This document shows, in pieces, positions 7,749 through 44,593 of a stretch of 47,837 nt of DNA. The notes under the pieces are model-generated. The model had not been told where the DNA came from. It did not search any database and was given only the letters and a program-made list of their open reading frames with translations. Position 1 is the stretch's first letter. The number at the start of each line of letters is the position of its first letter. The translations under genes were made by a program, and so were the position numbers. Origin of the DNA: a bacterium (lineage in GTDB: Bacteria; Vulcanimicrobiota; Vulcanimicrobiia; Vulcanimicrobiales; Vulcanimicrobiaceae); NCBI GenBank assembly GCA_021790895.1, contig JAJYFM010000008.1:1-47837 (forward strand), in the 5' to 3' direction.

Positions 7749-8103
7749 AATCGGGCCTTTACAACGGCTATTTGCGTGGGAATGACGGGCGGAGGAATGC
7801 CCATGGGTTACCGATACTCTATCACGCTCGCGCTACTAGCCGCGAGCCTGCTCGGCAGTACCCACCACCCTGCGCATCGCCCGAGGAGGTCGGCGAGCAC
7901 GGTGCCGCGCGCCGAGAGCCTCTACTCCTGGCATGCGCTGAGGCGGACGCGAGATATCCTCATCCTTCATCTGCTCGAGTTGCGGCGGGAGCGCTTGGGG
8001 CGCCTCGAGCGTCTTTTGCGAGCGGGGACGCCGATCGGTTGCCTTCTCAGGGATCCGCTCCTCTCGGCAAGAACCGAGCCGCCGCCCGCCAATAGTCGCC
8101 GAC

Positions 8104-8877
8104 ATGACGACTGCACCACCACCTCAAGAGAACGCGGGGCTCACGAGCCTCGTCGAAACCATCGTCGCCCCGGCGAGCGCCTTCGACCGCCTCGCCGAGA
8201 AGCAAACCTGGGGCTGGGCGTTTATCGCTTCCTCGCTCCTTACGATCGTCGCGGCGTTGGCGAGCGCCCCCGTCAATCGGCACCTTGCAAAATTGATCAC
8301 GGCGCAACGCATCGCCGCGATAAGCAATCCTCGACAGGCAGCGGCAGCTCGAAGCGCCGCTGCGATCTCCCTGAAGTTCGCCCCGTTCGGGTGGGTTTTT
8401 TCCCCGATTGGAATTCTCGTTGTCGTGTTGATCGCTACCGTCATTCTCGTGATCTTCAACGCCGTTCTTGGCGGAAAGGCGAATTTCAAGCAGATTTGGT
8501 GCGCGGCGATGAACGTCTCGGTCGTCTTTTCGCTCGGCGTACTGATCGGTTCCATCCTTCTCGCGCTCCGTGGCCCCGACGCCATCGCGAGCGTGACGGA
8601 TCTCTACCGAAACTCGCTCTCGCTCGCGGCGGTATTCCCGCGAGAGAATATTAAATTCGATGAATTTCTTTTAGCGATCACCCCATTCTCGCTCTGGGGA
8701 CTCTGGCTCAATTCAATGCTCATGCAACGCATAGCCCGGCTTGAGGCGCCGAAAGCCTGGGCGGCTGCACTCGCAGTGTTGATCCTTCCCGCGCTTCTTA
8801 CTGCGGGACTTGCCGTCCAACCCCCGGCTGCTCCAGGAGGAACGCCTCCGGCCACGAGCGCATCGGCCACCCCATAG
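8104..8877 (+). CDS. Yip1-family membrane protein
   Basis: VETIVAPASAFDRLAEKQTWGWAFIASSLLTIV with multiple TM helices, typical of Yip1/YIF1 domain proteins. Confidence 0.7.
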   Translation: MTTAPPPQENAGLTSLVETIVAPASAFDRLAEKQTWGWAFIASSLLTIVAALASAPVNRHLAKLITAQRIAAISNPRQAAAARSAAAISLKFAPFGWVFSPIGILVVVLIATVILVIFNAVLGGKANFKQIWCAAMNVSVVFSLGVLIGSILLALRGPDAIASVTDLYRNSLSLAAVFPRENIKFDEFLLAITPFSLWGLWLNSMLMQRIARLEAPKAWAAALAVLILPALLTAGLAVQPPAAPGGTPPATSASATP

Positions 8878-8910
8878 CCCACAGCTGAAACTTTTCCCCA
8901 CCTCATCCGT

Positions 8911-8936
8911 AGTAGGCGACGTATGCGTCGCCTACT
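8911..8936 (+). promoter_or_regulatory. Perfect hairpin enclosing the TolC-like start codon
   Basis: AGTAGGCGACG-TATG-CGTCGCCTACT followed by TTTTC; ATG (8923-8925) lies in the 4-nt loop. Confidence 0.7.
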
Positions 8937-10338
8937 TTTCGTTTGGATATCGGTTCCGGCGCTGATCGCCGGAGCGCTCTTCGCCGGCCCCGCCGGCGCA
9001 GCACCGCACCCGCTCGACCTGCGGGAAGCGGTCGCCTACGCACTCGCGCACAACGCGTCGGTCGCCGCTTCGGCAGCGGCGGTAGCGGCGGCGCGCTCGA
9101 CCTTCGCCACGCAGAAAACGCAAAATTTGCCGACCGCCGGTGCTTCTCTCAATAACATCATGTCGAAGAGTTCGAATTACGGCGGCGCGTACGCCGTCAT
9201 CGGTGCACAACAGCAGAGCGTCTTCAGCCAGAACACCGCACAGTTACAGGCACAATACACGTTGACCACCGGCGGGCTCGCCGGCATTCAACTCGCGGCT
9301 TCAAAGGCGAACCTCGAACAAGCGAAGGCGAACCTTCGGAACGCGCAGGCGCAAGTGGCGACTTCGGTAACAACGGCGTATAACAACGTCGTTCAGGATG
9401 ACGAAATCGTCAACGTTGATCGCGGAGACCTTCGATATCAGCGACTGCTGCTCCAAAATGCTCGCGTGAAAGCGCGCGCCGGCGTTGCAGCGGAGGTCGA
9501 CGTCCTCTCCGCACGCGTTGCCGTCGCGCGGAGTGAATCGACGCTCGTCGCCGCTCGGGCGAGCGTTGCAAACGCGCGCGATTCGCTCTGTCAGAGCATC
9601 GGCGCCCCGCTTGGAACGCGTTTCGCGCTGCCGAAGCAACTCGCCATGCCGCCGTTGCCGCACATATCGTTACGCAAAATCGAACGGATCGCCCTAGCAA
9701 ACCGTGCCGACATCGCAAGCGCACGCGATGCCCTTCGCGTGGCCGACCTCAACCGCAAGAGCTGGCTGCCGCAACTCTTCCCGCAAATTCAACTCTCCGC
9801 CGCGGTCGGCAATCAATTTTCTCCGACAAACGCGGTTTTCACGCAACAGCAACTCGATAGCGAATATGCGGCGGGGCTCATCCCAAGCAAAATTCTCGTC
9901 CCGCGCGGCACTCCGGGTTTCTGGCAGATTCAGGCGATTTCGAGCTTCAATCTCCCGATTGTCGATTATGGCGCCCGTCGCCTATCGCGCGTTAACTATG
10001 ACGCTGCGGTCAAGAGTGCCAAACTTTCTCTCGTAAACGCAAAACTCGTTGCCCTCAACGATGTGCGTAGTGCATATCGCGCCGCAAAAGCGGCGATCGC
10101 ACAAGTGGGCTTCGCCAGGCAAGAAGCTCGCCTCGGCATCGAAAGCGCTCACATCAAACAGCTTCAGTATCGCGCCGGCGTCGCCGCGCTCTCCGATGTC
10201 GTGCTGGCTCAGCAAACCTCAATTTCAGCGCAAAACGACCTCATCTCCGCCCGGGTTGCGTACGTCGATGCGCTTGTGCGCTTGCGCACTTCCATGGGTA
10301 TTTTTTCACCGACGAGTGCCGTCGCCGATCTTCACTAA
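8923..10338 (+). CDS. TolC-family outer-membrane efflux protein
   Basis: Signal peptide, long helical repeats (LREAVAYALAHNASVAASAAAV.. and second half SLRKIERIALANRADIASARDALRVADLNRKSWLPQLFPQIQLS). Confidence 0.88.
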   Translation: MRRLLFVWISVPALIAGALFAGPAGAAPHPLDLREAVAYALAHNASVAASAAAVAAARSTFATQKTQNLPTAGASLNNIMSKSSNYGGAYAVIGAQQQSVFSQNTAQLQAQYTLTTGGLAGIQLAASKANLEQAKANLRNAQAQVATSVTTAYNNVVQDDEIVNVDRGDLRYQRLLLQNARVKARAGVAAEVDVLSARVAVARSESTLVAARASVANARDSLCQSIGAPLGTRFALPKQLAMPPLPHISLRKIERIALANRADIASARDALRVADLNRKSWLPQLFPQIQLSAAVGNQFSPTNAVFTQQQLDSEYAAGLIPSKILVPRGTPGFWQIQAISSFNLPIVDYGARRLSRVNYDAAVKSAKLSLVNAKLVALNDVRSAYRAAKAAIAQVGFARQEARLGIESAHIKQLQYRAGVAALSDVVLAQQTSISAQNDLISARVAYVDALVRLRTSMGIFSPTSAVADLH

Positions 10339-10346
10339 GGAGCAAA

Positions 10347-11642
10347 ATGAATAAGAACGCCCGGACCATCGTCATCATCGCGATAGGCGCACTACTAGTC
10401 GTTGGGGTCGTGCTCGCGCTTCGCCCGCATTCGAGCAACTCTATCGCTACGAAAACGTTAAAAATCGAACCGACGACCTTCGTGGTAAAACTTCCGGAAA
10501 ACGGCACCGTCATGCACCCGCACATGGAGACGATCCCCGCCCTCGTCGGCGGCAACCTCGCGAGCATTACGGTCAAGGCGGGAAGCCACGTACAGGCGGG
10601 CGAGCTGCTCGCCACCATCGAGAATCCTTCACTCGACGCCAATGCCGCCGGGGCCCTCGCCGATTACCAAAGCTCGGTTGCAAACGTAAAAACAGCGGCG
10701 ATCCAAGAACGCAACGCTCGCGTACAGTATCAGGCCGGGGTCGACACCGCGCGCAGCAATTTGAACGAAGCTCTCCGCGTTCTCAAGGCCGACGAAACGC
10801 TCTATGCAGACAAAGCGATTCCCCGCAGCCAACTCGATGCGGATCGCGCCAAAGAAGAGCAAGCAAAAGTCACCTACGATCAATCGGTCGAGCAGTTACG
10901 ACTCGGCGCAGTGACCGGCTACGGCACCAGTTCGGTACAAGCGGCGAAAGCCCAAGCCTTAAAAGCGAAGATCCTCAACGATCAGGCGCAGCAACAACTC
11001 GGATTCGAACGCATAACGGCTCCCTTCAACGGTATCATTCAGAGCGTCGCGACGCGCCCCACCGACGCGAACCGCACGATTCTCCCCGGGGATGCCGTCT
11101 CCGCCGGACAAGCGATGTTTACGATTGCCGAGGGCAGCGCATACGTCGTTCAAGCGCAGGTTGACGAACAGGATGTCCACGCCATTGCCTTGGGAATGCC
11201 CGTCAACGTTACCAGCGAAGATTTCCCCAAGATAACCCTTCGCGGGCATATCGAACGCATCTCTCCGATTGCAACACGTTCGACTGACGCCGGGTCGACC
11301 GCGCGCGAGGTGTTGACCACGGTCGCCCTCGACGAAACCAACCCGGTCCTGCGCGACGGAATGACCGCGAACGTCGATATTCTCACGACCAGCATTCCGC
11401 ACGCACTCGTCGTTCCGACCGCAGCGATCGTTCGCGTCAAGAAACAAACGAAGGTCTGGGTTGTCCGGAACGGCAAAGCGCATGAGGTCGCCGTCGTTCT
11501 CGGCAAGAGCAACGACGTGCAGAGCGTCGTGCGCTCGGGTATCGTCGCCGGCGATACCATCATCGCGCATGCACTTCCGACTTTACGAGAAGGTATGGGC
11601 ATCGTGCCGATTCCACAGAGCAGCCCCTCGAGTAGCCCGTGA
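10347..11642 (+). CDS. Efflux periplasmic adaptor subunit (HlyD/MacA-like)
   Basis: VKAGSHVQAGELLATIENPSLDANA..., coiled-coil hairpin, FERITAPFNGIIQSV; RBS AAGGAG. Confidence 0.88.
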   Translation: MNKNARTIVIIAIGALLVVGVVLALRPHSSNSIATKTLKIEPTTFVVKLPENGTVMHPHMETIPALVGGNLASITVKAGSHVQAGELLATIENPSLDANAAGALADYQSSVANVKTAAIQERNARVQYQAGVDTARSNLNEALRVLKADETLYADKAIPRSQLDADRAKEEQAKVTYDQSVEQLRLGAVTGYGTSSVQAAKAQALKAKILNDQAQQQLGFERITAPFNGIIQSVATRPTDANRTILPGDAVSAGQAMFTIAEGSAYVVQAQVDEQDVHAIALGMPVNVTSEDFPKITLRGHIERISPIATRSTDAGSTAREVLTTVALDETNPVLRDGMTANVDILTTSIPHALVVPTAAIVRVKKQTKVWVVRNGKAHEVAVVLGKSNDVQSVVRSGIVAGDTIIAHALPTLREGMGIVPIPQSSPSSSP

Positions 11643-12826
11643 GCGTTCTCGCCGCCTACATCGAAGAAGCCCTCGCCTCACTCTGGCGCAATCGCCTTCG
11701 CTCGGCACTTTCGCTCCTTGGGACGGTTATCGGAATTGCATCGACGATCGCCGTCCTGGGCTTAAGCCAAGCGGGCGCGCGCGGCTTGGAAAAGTCGCTT
11801 GGCAACGCGGACTCGGTCGGGTGGGTGGTCTTCGTCGACCGATCGTCGGATAATCCACTTGCAGCAACGCTCTACTACCGCGATGTCGCTCGTTTCGTCG
11901 CTCGGAGTAACGGCGCGATTTCTTCCGCTTATGCGGGGTATTTCGGTCGCATGTATCCAGTGAATGTCGGCGGGAAAACGCATTACCCGCAGTTCCGTGG
12001 AATCGACAAGGCTTACCAATCGATGGTGCTCCTCGAAGGGCGTAAAATCAACCGCAACGACGTTTTGGAATCGGCAAATGTCGCGATGCTCTCAAAAGAA
12101 GCGCGCAAGACGCTCTTCCCTCACGAGGATCCCGTCGGCAGGAGCATTTCGGTAGGGAATGCGCGCCTGCGTATCGTCGGCGTCATCGATGCCAACGGAA
12201 GCTTATTGAGCAGTGCGGTCGGAGATGCAATCTACGCTCCTTACACCACTATGCATCGCATCGCGCCTGGGCCTATCGACGGAATTATGTTCTATGGCGC
12301 TCCCGGCATTCCATCAAAGCAGGTCAGCGCCGCTGCGATTGCCGCACTACAAAGCATTCATGGACCGCACGCTAAGTACACGGTGCAAGATCAAGCAAAA
12401 TCGCTCGGCATTTTTTCGCACGTCCTCAGCGGTATCGGCATCGGTATCACGTTCATCGGTGGAATTGCGCTTTGCGTGGCAGGCATCGGCATTATGAACA
12501 TCATGCTCGTCTCAGTCAACGAACGCACGCGCGAGATTGGCATTCGCAAGTCGATCGGCGCCAGCGCAGCGGATATTTCGTTGCAATTTTTGATCGAAGC
12601 AACGATTCTTTCGATGATCGGCGGTGTTATCGGCACGATATTCGGCGTAACCGTCGTGCTCGCCCTACAAGGGAGCATCATCCATTTCGCAGGAAGCGCG
12701 CCTGTCCCGTGGGTGATGGTGCTCTCGATCGCGGCATTTTTCACCATCGGCATCGGCATCGGTTTCGGTGCCTATCCGGCGATTCGCGCCGGGCGGCTCG
12801 ATCCGGTCGAAGCATTGCGGAGTTAA
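11639..12826 (+). CDS. ABC transporter permease (MacB/FtsX-like)
   Basis: IEEALASLWRNRLRSALSLLGTVIGIASTIAV, ..[28 protein letters not shown]..; GTGA overlap with adaptor. Confidence 0.9.
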   Translation: MSVLAAYIEEALASLWRNRLRSALSLLGTVIGIASTIAVLGLSQAGARGLEKSLGNADSVGWVVFVDRSSDNPLAATLYYRDVARFVARSNGAISSAYAGYFGRMYPVNVGGKTHYPQFRGIDKAYQSMVLLEGRKINRNDVLESANVAMLSKEARKTLFPHEDPVGRSISVGNARLRIVGVIDANGSLLSSAVGDAIYAPYTTMHRIAPGPIDGIMFYGAPGIPSKQVSAAAIAALQSIHGPHAKYTVQDQAKSLGIFSHVLSGIGIGITFIGGIALCVAGIGIMNIMLVSVNERTREIGIRKSIGASAADISLQFLIEATILSMIGGVIGTIFGVTVVLALQGSIIHFAGSAPVPWVMVLSIAAFFTIGIGIGFGAYPAIRAGRLDPVEALRS

Positions 12827-12827
12827 C

Positions 12828-14028
12828 GTGCTCGATTATATTCGCGAGACGCTCGAACTCATGAAGACGAACCTCACCCGCACCGTGCTGACACTTGTGG
12901 GGCTCGTCGTCGGAGTTGCCGCAATTATCTCCATTCAAGTAGCCGCCGCCGGAATGGCCGCCGCGATCAACGGTGCGTTCCGCGGCATCAACATGAACAC
13001 GTTCTTCATTTTTCCAAAGTCGACTCAAGGCAGTACGCAGCGGGCCAATCTCGGGCTCTCCGATCTCGCGCTGCTCGATCGGAACGTGCCAGGTATCGAG
13101 ACGGCCATCCCATTCGGGCAAACGCGCACGATGGTCAACGCCGGGCATCAACACGTTACGCTAAAGTTCGGCGGCGAATCGTATCGTCGTTTCAGCACCG
13201 CACCGGTCGTCGCGGGGCATGCGATCGCTCGCGCCGATGTCGAGGATGCGTCGCCGGTCTGCGTGCTTTCCGACAAAGCCTATCATCGACTTTTCCCCCA
13301 CGCAGCCGACCCGGACGCGGTCCTCGGCCAGTCGGTCTACATCGGTCCTAAACGCTACGTTGTTATCGGGGTACTCGGGCCGGCGACGCTCTCGACTGCA
13401 TCGCTAGGAATCGACATCAATAACGACGTCGCAATCCCCTACACGACCTTCTATAACGACTACCAGCGCGGGCGACCGCTTTTCGGTATTCAAGTCCTCG
13501 GCAACCGCAAAGCGAGCTTGGCAACGCTGGAAGCAAACGCAAAACGCGTGCTCTCCGATGCTCACGGAGGCTCGATCTACCAAACCTTCGATTTCGCGTT
13601 CTTCACCAAAAAAATCGACGGCTTCTTCGGTGTCGTCGGAACGATCGTCAGTGCGGTCGGCGCCATCTCGCTTCTGGTCGCCGGCATCGGCATCATGAAT
13701 ATCCTTTTCGTATCGGTCAGCGAGCGTACGCGGGAGATCGGGATTCGGCGCGCCATCGGCGCTTCGCGAGCGACGATTTTAATTCAATTTTTCGTGGAAG
13801 CATTCGTGCTCGCGTTTAGCGGTTCGCTCGTCGGTATGTTGGCGGGGCTTGGGATAGGGGACCTCGCCCAACAAATTTTCATCGTCCGCATCTCGGGAAC
13901 GGTCGCTGCGTTACCGTGGATGCAATCCATTTTGCTCGCGACGATCTTTGCAACGATCGTCACGCTCGTCTTCGGTACTCTTCCCGCGCTTCGCGCGGCT
14001 TCTGTCGACCCCATCGAGGCATTACGTT

Positions 14029-14036
<8 letters not shown>
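12828..14036 (+). CDS. Second ABC transporter permease (MacB/FtsX-like)
   Basis: GTG start 12828 ([34 protein letters not shown]); [32 protein letters not shown]. The ORF-track start at 12768 would overlap the upstream gene. Confidence 0.88.
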
Positions 14037-14772
<736 letters not shown>

Positions 14773-14806: not shown

Positions 14807-16003
14807 GTGAAACAACGCGTTCTTCCCACCCTCATCATCGCTCTCGTCGGGGCGAGCGTCGGCAGCTTCCTCATGATGCTCTACGCGAGCACGCATTTTG
14901 CCGGCGTCGCCGGGCCGAACCATTCGCTGCCCGCGGTTTCAGCGGCGCCTCTGCAAGGGATTAGCGACCAAGATCGCATCGTCTCGGCAGTGAAGCGCAC
15001 CAAACCCTCGGTTGTCGCGATTCAGCTCGACGTCAACGGACAGCGGGTCGTGCCGTTCTTCCAGGGCTTCTTCGGCCAGGGCGGCCCCGGCGTCGAAGAG
15101 CCGTACAAAGGGAAAGCCTCGGGTTCGGGATTCGTGTACGACAACAAGGGCGACATCGTGACCAACGCGCACGTCGTTACGCCTCCGCAGGGCGGGAACA
15201 TCACCAAGTTGACGGTGGTTTTCGCCAACGGCGACCACGTGCCGGCGCACGTCGTCGCGGAGAACATCGGCGCCGACCTCGCGATCATCCGCGTCAACGG
15301 TTACAAGAAGCTTCCGCCGCCGTTGCAGTTCGCGAACTTCGACCGCGTCGAGCAGGGACAGTGGGCGATCGCCATCGGCGAGCCGCTCGAGTTGCAGCAA
15401 ACCGTGACGCTCGGCATCGTTTCGGCCTTCAATCGCAACGAGCCGATTCAGAACGATAGCGGGCAGACGATCGACTTCAAAGGGCTTCTCCAGACCTCTG
15501 CACCGATCAATCCCGGTAACTCCGGCGGCCCGCTGATCGACGACCACGGCAAAGTGATCGGCATCAACCAGTCGACCGTGAAATCCGCGTACGCCCAGGG
15601 CATCGGCTTCGCCATTCCGGCGAATACCGTGCAGCGCGTCGTCGCCGAGATGCTCGCGCACCCCGGCATCACGCAGGGGACGAACGAAGGCTACATGGGG
15701 ATTCAGATGGCCGATCTCACGCCGGGTCTGCGCAACCAGATCGGCTACGCGAACGGACCCAACGGCATCGCCATCATCGCCGTGGTTCCGGGTTCGCCCG
15801 CCGATAAAGCGGGGCTCGAGCCCGGGAACGTGATCCTTCAGGTCGACGGAAAGAGCTTCACCAAGACCCAGGATCTCGTGAAGTATATCGCCGCGAAGAA
15901 GCCCGGAACGGTTGTCCGGATCGATCTCTGGGCACAGGGGCTCAAAAAATTCGCGGCCGTCACGCTGACGGAGCGTCCAGCCACCGCCGGAACGGTGCCG
16001 TAG
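14807..16003 (+). CDS. HtrA/DegP-like trypsin-type serine protease with PDZ domain
   Basis: TNAHVV, ADLAIIRV, INPGNSGGPLID, PDZ GYMGIQM..VVPGSPADKAGLEPGNVILQVDG; N-terminal membrane anchor; GTG start. Confidence 0.92.
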   Translation: MKQRVLPTLIIALVGASVGSFLMMLYASTHFAGVAGPNHSLPAVSAAPLQGISDQDRIVSAVKRTKPSVVAIQLDVNGQRVVPFFQGFFGQGGPGVEEPYKGKASGSGFVYDNKGDIVTNAHVVTPPQGGNITKLTVVFANGDHVPAHVVAENIGADLAIIRVNGYKKLPPPLQFANFDRVEQGQWAIAIGEPLELQQTVTLGIVSAFNRNEPIQNDSGQTIDFKGLLQTSAPINPGNSGGPLIDDHGKVIGINQSTVKSAYAQGIGFAIPANTVQRVVAEMLAHPGITQGTNEGYMGIQMADLTPGLRNQIGYANGPNGIAIIAVVPGSPADKAGLEPGNVILQVDGKSFTKTQDLVKYIAAKKPGTVVRIDLWAQGLKKFAAVTLTERPATAGTVP

Positions 16004-16051
16004 CGCACCGCGCTCCGACGGGAGCGCAACCGAAAGGACGACCCTGCTGTT

Positions 16052-16082
16052 ACAAGGAGCGGAACAAATTGCCGCTCCTTGT
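16052..16082. promoter_or_regulatory. CIRCE-like inverted repeat upstream of dnaK
   Basis: ACAAGGAGCGG-N9(AACAAATTG)-CCGCTCCTTGT, 11-bp perfect arms with 9-nt spacer; arm sequence differs from canonical CIRCE. Confidence 0.5.
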
Positions 16083-16170
16083 TGTAGTATGGGGTAGGCA
16101 ACCAAGCCCGAATTCGTTCGTAAGCGGCAAGGCGTCGTCGAACGATCGGAGCGTCGCCGAATCGTCGCGA

Positions 16171-16197
16171 CGCGCACACCAACCTCGAATGTGCGCG
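16171..16197 (+). promoter_or_regulatory. Hairpin in the dnaK upstream region
   Basis: CGCGCACA-CCAACCTCGAA-TGTGCGCG; loop contains ACCTCG, complementary to CGAGGT (16269-16274) at the dnaK ribosome-binding region. Confidence 0.4.
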
Positions 16198-16282
16198 CGC
16201 CTCGGCTCGACCGCTCGATCGCTCGATCAAGCTGGTCCAGGGCGCGCTCGGGGTTCACATCACATCAACGAGGTAAAACTTC

Positions 16283-18136
16283 ATGGCTAAAGTGGTCGGA
16301 ATCGACCTCGGCACGACCAACTCGGTCGTCGCCGTAATGGAGGGCAATTCGCCCACCGTTATCGCAAACTCGGAAGGCTCGCGTACGACTCCGTCGGTCG
16401 TGGCTTTCTCGAAAACCGGCGAGCGTCTCGTCGGACAACTCGCAAAGCGTCAAGCAGTCACCAACCCGGAGCGCACGATCTCTTCGATCAAGCGCCACAT
16501 GGGTGAGGGCGACTATCGCGTCAAGATCGATGGCAAGGATTACACCCCGCAAGAGATCTCGGCGATGGTTCTGCAAAAACTCGTCAACGACGCGAGCAAC
16601 TATCTCGGCGAACGCGTCACCCAGGCGGTCATTACCGTTCCCGCCTATTTTAACGACGCGCAACGTCAAGCAACCAAAGATGCCGGCAAGATCGCCGGAC
16701 TCGAAGTGTTGCGCATTATCAACGAACCGACCGCAGCGGCACTCGCGTATGGACTCGATAAGAAGGGCAACGAAACGATCCTCGTGTGGGATCTCGGCGG
16801 CGGCACCTTCGACGTCTCTATTCTCGAAGTCGGCGACGGCGTCTTCGAGGTGAAATCGACGAACGGCGACACGCGGCTCGGCGGCGACGACTACGACCAC
16901 CGTGTCGTTGAGTGGATCGTCGGCGAATTCCGCAAAGATCAGGGCATCGATCTCTCCAAGGATAAACAGGCGATGCAACGCCTCACCGAGGCCGCGGAGA
17001 AAGCGAAGATCGAACTTTCGGCGGTCGTGCAAACGACGATCAACTTACCCTTCATCACCGCCGATGCCGAAGGCCCCAAACATCTCGAATACACGCTGAC
17101 GCGTGCGAAGTTCGAAGAGATCACCAGCGATCTCACTGACCGCTGCATCAACCCCTTCAAGAGCGCGCTTGCCGATGCGAAGATCGACATCTCGCAGATC
17201 GATGAAGTGGTGATGGTCGGCGGATCGACCCGCATGCCCGTCATTCTCGAACTCGTCCGTAAGCTCACCGGCAAGGATCCGAACCTCACCGTCAACCCCG
17301 ACGAAGTCGTCGCGGTCGGTGCGGCCATTCAGGCCGGCGTTCTCTCCGGCGAAGTGCGCGATGTCGTTCTACTCGACGTCACCCCGCTCTCGCTGGGCTT
17401 GGAGACGATGGGCGGAGTGATGACGACGCTGATCGAGCGCAACACGACGATCCCGACGAAGAAATCGCAGGTCTTCACCACCGCAGAGGACGGCCAAACC
17501 AGTGTGGACATCCACATTCTGCAAGGCGAACGCCCGATGGCCGGTGATAATAAGACGCTGGGACGATTCCGGCTCGAAGGACTTCCGCCGGCACCGCGCG
17601 GCGTACCGCAGATCGAAGTGACCTTCAATATCGATGCCAATGGCATTGTGAATGTCGGCGCAAAAGATCTCGGGACCGGGAAGGAACAGCAAATCACGAT
17701 CACCGCATCGACAAACCTCAACAAAGAAGAAGTCGAACGGATGGTCAAAGATGCCGAGCTTCAAGGTGCCGCCGACAAAGCGAAGCGCGAAGAGGCAGAG
17801 GTGCGCAACACCGCCTCGAGCCTGATTTACTCGACGGAGAAATCGCTCAAGGAAGTCGGCGAGAAACTCGATGCAACCGCACGCGGCGAAGTCGAGAGTG
17901 CTCTCTCCGATTTGAAAAAACTCAGCGAAAACGGCACCGCCGCTGAAATCAAGGCGGCGATCGAAAAGCTGCAGACCGCAAGCTATAAGATGGCTGAACT
18001 GCTCTACAAGAGCACCGGATCGTCGCCCGACGGCGAAGCCGCCGGTGCTGAATCCGCGAACGGGCAAGCTTCGAACGGCGCGACCAATGCCGCTCCCGAC
18101 GATGCCATCGACGCCGAGTTCAAGGAAGCGAAGTAG
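16283..18136 (+). CDS. dnaK: Chaperone DnaK (Hsp70)
   Basis: [44 protein letters not shown]. Confidence 0.98.
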
Positions 18137-18157
18137 CCTCCGGTTCATGCGAGCGGA

Positions 18158-18191
18158 GTGAGGGCGAGCCGTACGCGGCTATTGCCCTCAC
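18158..18191 (+). promoter_or_regulatory. Two-tier hairpin in dnaK-grpE intergenic region
   Basis: GTGAGGGC..AGCCG-TACG-CGGCT..GCCCTCAC; 8-bp outer and 5-bp inner stem. Confidence 0.5.
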
Positions 18192-18248
18192 CTCCCGCCG
18201 CCTCTTCATGCGCTCAAAATAAGAAAAGAAGTAGAGATAGACGCACCT

Positions 18249-18755
18249 ATGGATAACGATCTGCTCAACGACCCTGTCGGCGTAAACGAAGACAGCGTGC
18301 AGCCGGAGAATGAACTCTCCAAAGCAAACGCGCGCGCCGACGATAACTATAATAAATTTTTACTCGCGATGGCCGACTTCGAAAATTACAAGCGACGCGT
18401 ACAACGCGATATCGAACAACGTATCGTCGAGCATCGACGCCGCCTCTTCGGCCGTCTGCTTCCGGTTCTCGATAATCTCGAACGCGCGCTCGCCGTACCC
18501 ACCGGAGCCGATGCGCTGCGCAGTGGAGTTGAAAGCACGCTGCGCGGATTCGAAGCGGTCCTCACCTCCGAAGGCATCAGTGCCGTCGATGTGAAGGGAC
18601 AACCGTTCGACCCGCACGTTGCCGAGGCGATCGGAACGGTTGCAGCTACCGATGGTCAAGCCGACGATACCGTCGTCGAAGTCGCGGAGAAAGGGTATCG
18701 CCTCGGCGACGATCTCCTCCGACCGGCGAAAGTACTCGTCGCAAAGCATCAATGA
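18249..18755 (+). CDS. grpE: Nucleotide exchange factor GrpE
   Basis: [51 protein letters not shown]. Confidence 0.95.
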
Positions 18756-19765
18756 ACTACAAGGACTACTACGCCGTTCTCGGCGTGCCAAAAGGCGCTC
18801 CCGAGAAGGACATCAAGTCCGCCTATCGCCGCCTTGCACGTAAATGGCACCCCGATGCGAATCCCGGTAACGCGAAGGCCGCCGAAGAAAAGTTCAAGGA
18901 GATCTCCGAAGCGTACGAGGTGCTCGGCGACAGCGACAAACGCCGTAAATACGATGCGCTCGGAAGCGATTGGCAGCAGGCGGCACGACAGGCGGAGCAA
19001 CAGCGCCGCTATCGGACGCAACAAAACGCATCGCAGTCCGACTTCGGCTTCGGCCCCAACATGGGTGCCGGGGCGGGGACGAGCGGCTTTTCGGATTTTT
19101 TCGATATGTTCTTCTCCGGCGTCGGACGGCGCGGCCCGGCCGCTGCCCCGACCGCAGCACGAGGGCAAGACATGGAAACGAGTATCGAACTCTCCCTGCA
19201 CGATATCTACGAAGGCGGCAAGAAATCGATCTCGTTGCAACTCGAGGATAGCTGTCCGCGCTGCCGCGGCACGGGGACGGAGAGCGGCCACCTTTGTCTC
19301 GCTTGCCATGGAACGGGACGAACGCTGAGCACGAAAAAATTCGAGGTCTCTATTCCGCGCGGAATCGGCGAGGGTCAACGCATCCGTCTTGCGGGGCAGG
19401 GCGGCGTCGGCACCGGTGGCGCGCCGAACGGCGACCTCTTCCTCATCGTGAAAACAAGCGAGGACGCGCGCTATAAACGAAAAGGCGACGATCTCTATGT
19501 CGACCTCCCGGTCGATCTCTTCGACCTCGTCTTAGGGGCCGAGGTTCACGTACCGACGATGGGCGGAAACGTCGCGATGACGATTCCGGAAGGCACGCAG
19601 AACAATCGCTTACTCCGTTTATCGGGCAAGGGAATGCCGCACGTCAAGGGCGGCGGCAGCGGCGACCAATATGTCCGCCTTATCGGGCAATTGCCACAGA
19701 ATCTCACCGACAAGGAACGCAAAATTTTCCGCGACCTTAAAAACCTTCGCAACGGAAAGAAGTAG
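18752..19765 (+). CDS. dnaJ: DnaJ-type co-chaperone with reduced (two-motif) Cys-rich region
   Basis: J domain [32 protein letters not shown]; only CPRCRGTG and CLACHGTG; C-terminal DnaJ_C; ATGA overlap with grpE. Confidence 0.92.
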
Positions 19766-22439: not shown

Positions 22440-22480
22440 AAGAGAGGGGAGACGCCTATGGCGTCTCCCCTCTCTTCTTT
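22440..22480. terminator. Bidirectional intrinsic terminator
   Basis: AAGAGAGGGGAGACGCC-TAT-GGCGTCTCCCCTCTCTT then CTTTT; 17-bp perfect stem between convergent genes. Confidence 0.9.
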
Positions 22481-25593: not shown

Positions 25594-25640
25594 TAGAACC
25601 ACGTTATTATTCTCATCGACCTAGGGGCAGGCGCCCCAAA

Positions 25641-25670
25641 GGCATCGTCGATCTCGACGATGCCTTTTTT
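25641..25670 (+). terminator. Intrinsic terminator of the Lys/Ala-rich gene
   Basis: GGCATCGTCG-ATCT-CGACGATGCC followed by TTTTTT. Confidence 0.92.
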
Positions 25671-44536: not shown

Positions 44537-44552
44537 CGCAAAGACGTCCGAA

Positions 44553-44593
44553 AAAGAAACGCCCCGCCGGTTACGGCGGGGCGTTTCTTTTAT
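44553..44593. terminator. Bidirectional intrinsic terminator
   Basis: AAAGAAACGCCCCGCCG-GTTA-CGGCGGGGCGTTTCTTT; 17-bp perfect stem between convergent genes. Confidence 0.9.

Follow-up and report, generated by a model that had tools for sequence, protein, structure and literature searches.

In the window (the whole 47,837-nucleotide stretch of DNA that was analyzed), the gene for a TolC-like outer-membrane efflux protein begins inside a perfect palindrome with the look of a transcription terminator. We asked what such a structure does at the first codon of an efflux operon. A first-pass annotation had read it as a terminator behind the upstream yip1 gene that overlaps the tolC start and might combine transcriptional attenuation with translational control of the operon.

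The hairpin at the start of the efflux operon

The palindrome reads AGTAGGCGACG-TATG-CGTCGCCTACT at 8911 to 8936 and is followed by TTTCGTTTGG (Table 1). As the first-pass annotation had it, the arms are perfect over 11 bp, the ATG at 8923 lies in the TATG loop, and this codon is the sole plausible start of the tolC open reading frame (ORF), with no in-frame ATG, GTG, or TTG within the following 20 codons. The annotation had seen no good Shine-Dalgarno (SD) sequence; however, the SD-like AGTAGG, a 5/6 match to AGGAGG, is present 6 nt upstream of the ATG, inside the 5' arm. Judged by its place relative to the promoter described below, it would exist only in RNA begun upstream.

Table 1. Features at the tolC start and in the efflux operon (window positions)
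Feature	Position	Strand	Basis
yip1, Yip1-domain membrane protein gene	8104..8877	+	ORF; PF04893, E 2e-10
-35 element TGAAAC of ECF-type promoter, in invariant 11-bp block 8885-8895	8886..8891	+	Motif statistics
38-bp block invariant in 8/8 congeneric orthologs	8907..8944	+	
-10 element CGTA; spacer of 16 bp, 8892-8907	8908..8911	+	Motif statistics
Perfect inverted repeat, 11-bp arms, TATG loop with start codon	8911..8936	+	
SD-like AGTAGG, 6 nt 5' of ATG, within 5' arm	8911..8916	+	Sequence
Predicted transcription start of ECF promoter, 5-10 nt after CGTA	8916..8921	+	Promoter geometry
tolC-like outer-membrane efflux protein gene	8923..10338	+	PF02321, E 9e-37
T-rich tail TTTCGTT, unchanged even at third codon positions	8937..8943	+	
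HlyD-type adaptor, two MacB/FtsX permeases, ABC ATPase (remaining operon)	10347..14772	+	Pfam

The segment from 8911 to 8936 alone folds at -18.8 kcal/mol (z = -5.5 against dinucleotide shuffles). Across 8880 to 8970, the wider span that had been proposed for folding, the value is -28.5 (z = -2.3). In this span, in 8896-8960, and in 8911-8936 alike, the predicted hairpin encloses the SD-like element together with the start codon, so that both are covered in longer transcripts. The hairpin was the top terminator-like site in a scan of 7 to 17 kb, and its Carafa-type score of 27 to 35 falls in the range of 24 to 67 obtained for nine terminators of the genus. It has the form of an intrinsic terminator, a GC-rich hairpin and then a U-tract, except that the U-tract is interrupted (UUUCGUUU); the T-tail is conserved and lies on the coding side only. 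From the yip1 stop codon to the hairpin is 34 nt. The annotation's view of the structure as terminator-like is thus supported by its score and by its position after yip1.

In about 1.2 Mb of sequence from the genus, we found 37 perfect inverted repeats (arms of at least 11 bp, loops of 3 to 8), the longest of which mostly lie directly 3' of stop codons, a terminator-like placement. Among those checked, the tolC repeat is the only one that both encloses a start codon and recurs in relatives. A genus-wide start-codon hairpin device found no support in the other start-codon hairpins of congener G007: the one at L167 (7417-7446) seems to terminate a gene on the opposite strand, the called ORF being apparently antisense, and the one at L154 is absent from the close relative L212. 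Clear intrinsic terminators follow stop codons in the window at 44552-44591, 22440-22476, and 25638-25667, several of them between convergent genes.

Pfam matches bore out the operon make-up given by the annotation (TolC, HlyD, two permeases, and an ATPase), and the two small ORFs downstream of it proved to be a glyoxalase and a cupredoxin. The likely source of read-through RNA into tolC is yip1. No regulator gene adjoins the operon in the window, as judged from ORFs and Pfam. The region 14807-19765, directly 3' of the operon, holds a DegP/HtrA-like protease gene and then dnaK-grpE-dnaJ, a stress-gene neighborhood that fits envelope-stress control of the efflux operon. Upstream of yip1, a small secreted-protein ORF (about 7799-8110) is conserved in the genus and has a GGAGG within a small GGGC...GCCC repeat 5' of its ATG.

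A very probable ECF-type promoter that ends in the palindrome

The firmest result is that tolC very probably has an ECF-type promoter of its own. The sequence TGAAAC-N16-CGTA at 8886-8911 is an exact fit to the published SigW consensus, TGAAACN16,17CGTA (PMC2375139); it is present in 8/8 orthologs and is the single occurrence of the pattern in the window. Across the genus the motif is commoner than its reversed control. Motif statistics were computed on about 1.17 Mb of G007, a better assembled congener, which holds 13 matches at spacers 16 to 17, five of them directly 5' of gene starts. Shuffled words gave 2.1 matches, with 0.07 before starts, and each other spacer gave 0 to 3 matches. The scan of 7 to 17 kb for sigma-70 promoters found none near tolC, and its total lay below that of shuffles. 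The tolC promoter shares its -35, -10, and spacing with promoters of the Bacillus subtilis SigW regulon, as well as the link to envelope and efflux functions (PMC2375139), but it comes from a different phylum, its sigma factor is a putative one, and its -10 element overlaps a palindrome.

At ECF promoters, transcription begins a few bases 3' of the -10 element. Because the promoter ends at 8911, RNA made from it should begin within the 5' arm and be unable to form the complete hairpin, which speaks against the attenuation or translational control that the annotation had proposed, as far as the operon's own mRNA is concerned. The exact start is a prediction from promoter geometry. When RNAs starting at 8916 to 8922 were folded, a start at 8916 left six pairs and one at 8918 four, and from 8920 onward no start-codon hairpin formed.

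Other genes downstream of the motif encode an RND pump, a DUF4097-like protein, a winged-helix regulator, and a secreted protein (names from inspection of the translations). In the secreted-protein gene (L100/L104), the ATG comes only 8 nt after CGTA. An ECF sigma gene carries CGAAAC-N17-CGTA before its own ATG in the three congeners inspected, together with a second promoter, TGAAAC-N17-CGTA, facing the opposite way. A motif before an ECF sigma gene's own start is the usual sign of autoregulation, and this sigma factor is therefore a candidate for acting on the tolC promoter; by its motifs, it is the likely master of the regulon. The gene was found in G007:C27, G002:C34, G001:C332, and G000:C8 (loci L132, L133, L135, and L083), and the divergent promoter beside it serves a small membrane protein gene. 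A further site, TGAAACAAATATCGTAGAGTGCACGTA, at L178 4470 (minus strand), L084, L094, L102, and L109, is conserved in most genomes of the genus; it is divergent from a winged-helix regulator gene and has no consistent ORF downstream, so that a small RNA or small protein under an ECF promoter is possible there. A literature search on sigma factors of Candidatus Eremiobacterota found no regulon description for the phylum.

Conservation in the genus and history in the family

The tolC start was recovered from 8 of the 10 genomes of the genus; one of the two left out has a contig break inside tolC, and in the other no ortholog was found. The 38-bp block is identical in these eight Candidatus Eremiobacterota genomes within a 600-bp region of 72 to 90% identity between species, and the 11-bp block over the -35 element is likewise invariant at a fixed distance from it. 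In 20,000 column shuffles of the alignment, the longest invariant run was 25, compared with the 38 observed. Codons 2 to 7 of tolC are nucleotide invariant in all eight orthologs; elsewhere in the gene, 29% of constant-residue codons are so, which puts the chance for codons 2 to 7 at about 6e-4. The palindrome occurs once per genome, at the tolC start only. We therefore take selection to act on the bases and not on the protein alone, and by this comparison the hairpin region is not a product of chance. Part of the palindrome's invariance is explained by overlapping constraints, namely, the promoter end, the start codon, and the Arg-Arg-Leu-Leu start of the signal peptide.

The annotation had looked to conservation and covariation of the stem in relatives. 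Conservation was found; covariation was not, since arms and loop are invariant in the eight orthologs and leave no compensatory changes to see. In the same species, the window terminator at 44552-44591, our control for compensatory change, has a G-C pair exchanged for C-G, further paired changes, and loops that vary.

At -784 to -892 from tolC, roughly at the start of yip1, fifteen further genomes of the family carry [TC]GAAAC-N16/17-CGTA (random words, 0.03); an ECF-type promoter thus commonly drives the yip1-tolC operon. No such motif was found before yip1 in the window's own genus. In G051, the nearest outgroup, CGAAAC-N17-CGTA precedes the tolC ATG by 12 nt, an SD-like GAGGTG comes directly after CGTA, and there is no palindrome or hairpin; in G071, G079, and G045, a TGAAAC element lies right before tolC, with a weaker -10. 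The promoter at tolC is therefore common to this genus and a neighboring one, and the palindrome was added in this genus.

Four other genomes (G072, G085, G089, and G093; loci L258, L263, L262, and L260) have perfect GC-rich hairpins of 11 to 12 bp early in the tolC coding sequence, in the signal-peptide region, with arms kept and loops varied; they probably reflect an Ala-rich codon composition. A 13-bp perfect hairpin in the tolC start region of L012 (G015) and a 15-bp one 77 nt before the tolC match in L288 (G048) both differ from the hairpin of the window.

What the palindrome may do

The explanation that we favor, at only slightly less than an even chance, is a gate at a stress promoter, in which RNA from tolC's own promoter escapes the hairpin and read-through RNA from yip1 is blocked. 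An ECF sigma factor would recognize TGAAAC-N16-CGTA, and RNA would begin a few bases downstream, in the 5' arm, giving a nearly leaderless tolC mRNA without the full hairpin. RNA arriving from yip1 would carry both arms and, with all eleven pairs, fold into the hairpin, which would hide the SD-like sequence and the AUG and be followed by the U-rich tail. Such RNA would halt at the hairpin or stay untranslated, whether by termination or by a translation block. The same bases would mark the end of the promoter, the transcription start, and the start codon, as well as the border between two transcription units, and the efflux operon would be silent unless its own sigma factor were active. The gate would have been built on a promoter that the nearest outgroup already has at tolC and that many other genera of the family have 5' of yip1.

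This logic has a precedent in bacteriophage T4 gene e (also soc, 49, and I-TevI), where a late promoter lies within a hairpin that hides the ribosome-binding site and the long early transcripts are translated about 100-fold less than structure-less ones (PMC3014915). As would be the case at tolC, long read-through RNA of the phage genes forms a helix over the SD sequence and/or the AUG, and RNA from the gene's own promoter, without the 5' strand, escapes it; in both systems, that promoter depends on an alternative sigma factor. At tolC, by contrast, the gene belongs to an efflux operon of the chromosome and its promoter is of ECF type, the AUG is in the loop itself, the U-rich tail may also terminate transcription, and the mRNA would be nearly leaderless; the phage mechanism was shown experimentally, whereas the tolC gate comes from sequence computation. 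That a 38-bp chromosomal gate makes the operon answer only to its own stress sigma factor, with T4 gene e logic having arisen in one genus of uncultured bacteria, is a claim we hold tentatively. Besides the T4 precedents (gene e, soc, and I-TevI; PMC3014915), the gate is favored by the two invariant blocks and codons 2 to 7, by the enrichment of the motif and its recurrence before the ECF sigma gene, upstream of yip1 in 15 genomes, and in G051, by the second gene with CGTA 8 nt before its ATG, and by a terminator score within the genus range with a conserved, coding-side T-tail. Several observations sit less well with it. Arms and loop show no change and no covariation, unlike the true terminator at 44552-44591; the U-tail is interrupted; and RNA starting at 8916 would still pair over 6 bp and hold the AUG in a loop. 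The GAGGTG that follows CGTA in G051 would not be part of the transcript, which means that the start position is less secure or that this SD match is accidental. Transposase genes of IS10 and IS50 are protected in a related manner, as inward read-through RNA folds over the gene start and RNA from the gene's own promoter does not; here, there are no transposon ends, and the site is a single-copy chromosomal one.

The invariance that argues for selection also suits a DNA operator, which we regard as a fairly unlikely explanation but a serious rival to the gate. A dimeric repressor (TetR- or MarR-like) on 8911-8936 would lie over the ECF start site and block the promoter; on this account, the start codon would be within the palindrome only because the mRNA is nearly leaderless. 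A perfect 26-bp palindrome running from the last base of the -10 element is in the usual repressor position, and arms and loop that stay invariant, in comparison with the compensating, loop-varying terminator at 44552-44591, favor base-specific recognition, for example, by a repressor dimer over the start site. Efflux operons are often under repressor control, and TetR-family operators (AcrR, TtgR, and QacR) are long palindromes over the promoter or start site of such operons; the tolC site, by contrast, has neither an adjacent regulator gene nor a second site. A distant, unlinked regulator may exist. No second site within one mismatch was found in the 10 genomes, and sites within three mismatches were, among the matches listed, scattered like GC-rich background. 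No autoregulatory site was thus found, and an operator regulon built on further copies was rejected. An operator would also leave the conserved one-sided T-tail outside the palindrome unexplained, and the palindrome is absent from G051, which has the same promoter.

It is improbable that the structure simply ends the yip1 transcript as an ordinary intrinsic terminator, overlapping the tolC start by chance and exerting no special control on tolC. Its score is typical of the genus, and it lies 34 nt after the yip1 stop; the genus commonly has intrinsic terminators 12 to 26 nt behind stop codons. However, its synonymous codons and ATG loop are invariant whereas the terminator at 44552-44591 evolves fast, and part of it coincides with the -10 and start region of a conserved promoter. 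Regulation of the operon's own mRNA by the hairpin, as an attenuator, a thermosensor, or a means of sequestering the start codon, could draw on the presence of both the start codon and AGTAGG within the structure, yet it is very improbable: the conserved ECF promoter puts the start in the 5' arm, an 11-bp GC-rich stem is too stable for easy melting, and there is no sensor element.

For Candidatus Eremiobacterota, the analysis yields an ECF promoter motif open to testing, together with a candidate sigma factor and several target genes. If the gate at tolC is real, a few dozen bases suffice to insulate a stress operon from its neighbor, the start site being placed within a hairpin that is available to read-through RNA alone. 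This would be a logic known from phage T4 and, to our knowledge, new for a chromosomal efflux operon.
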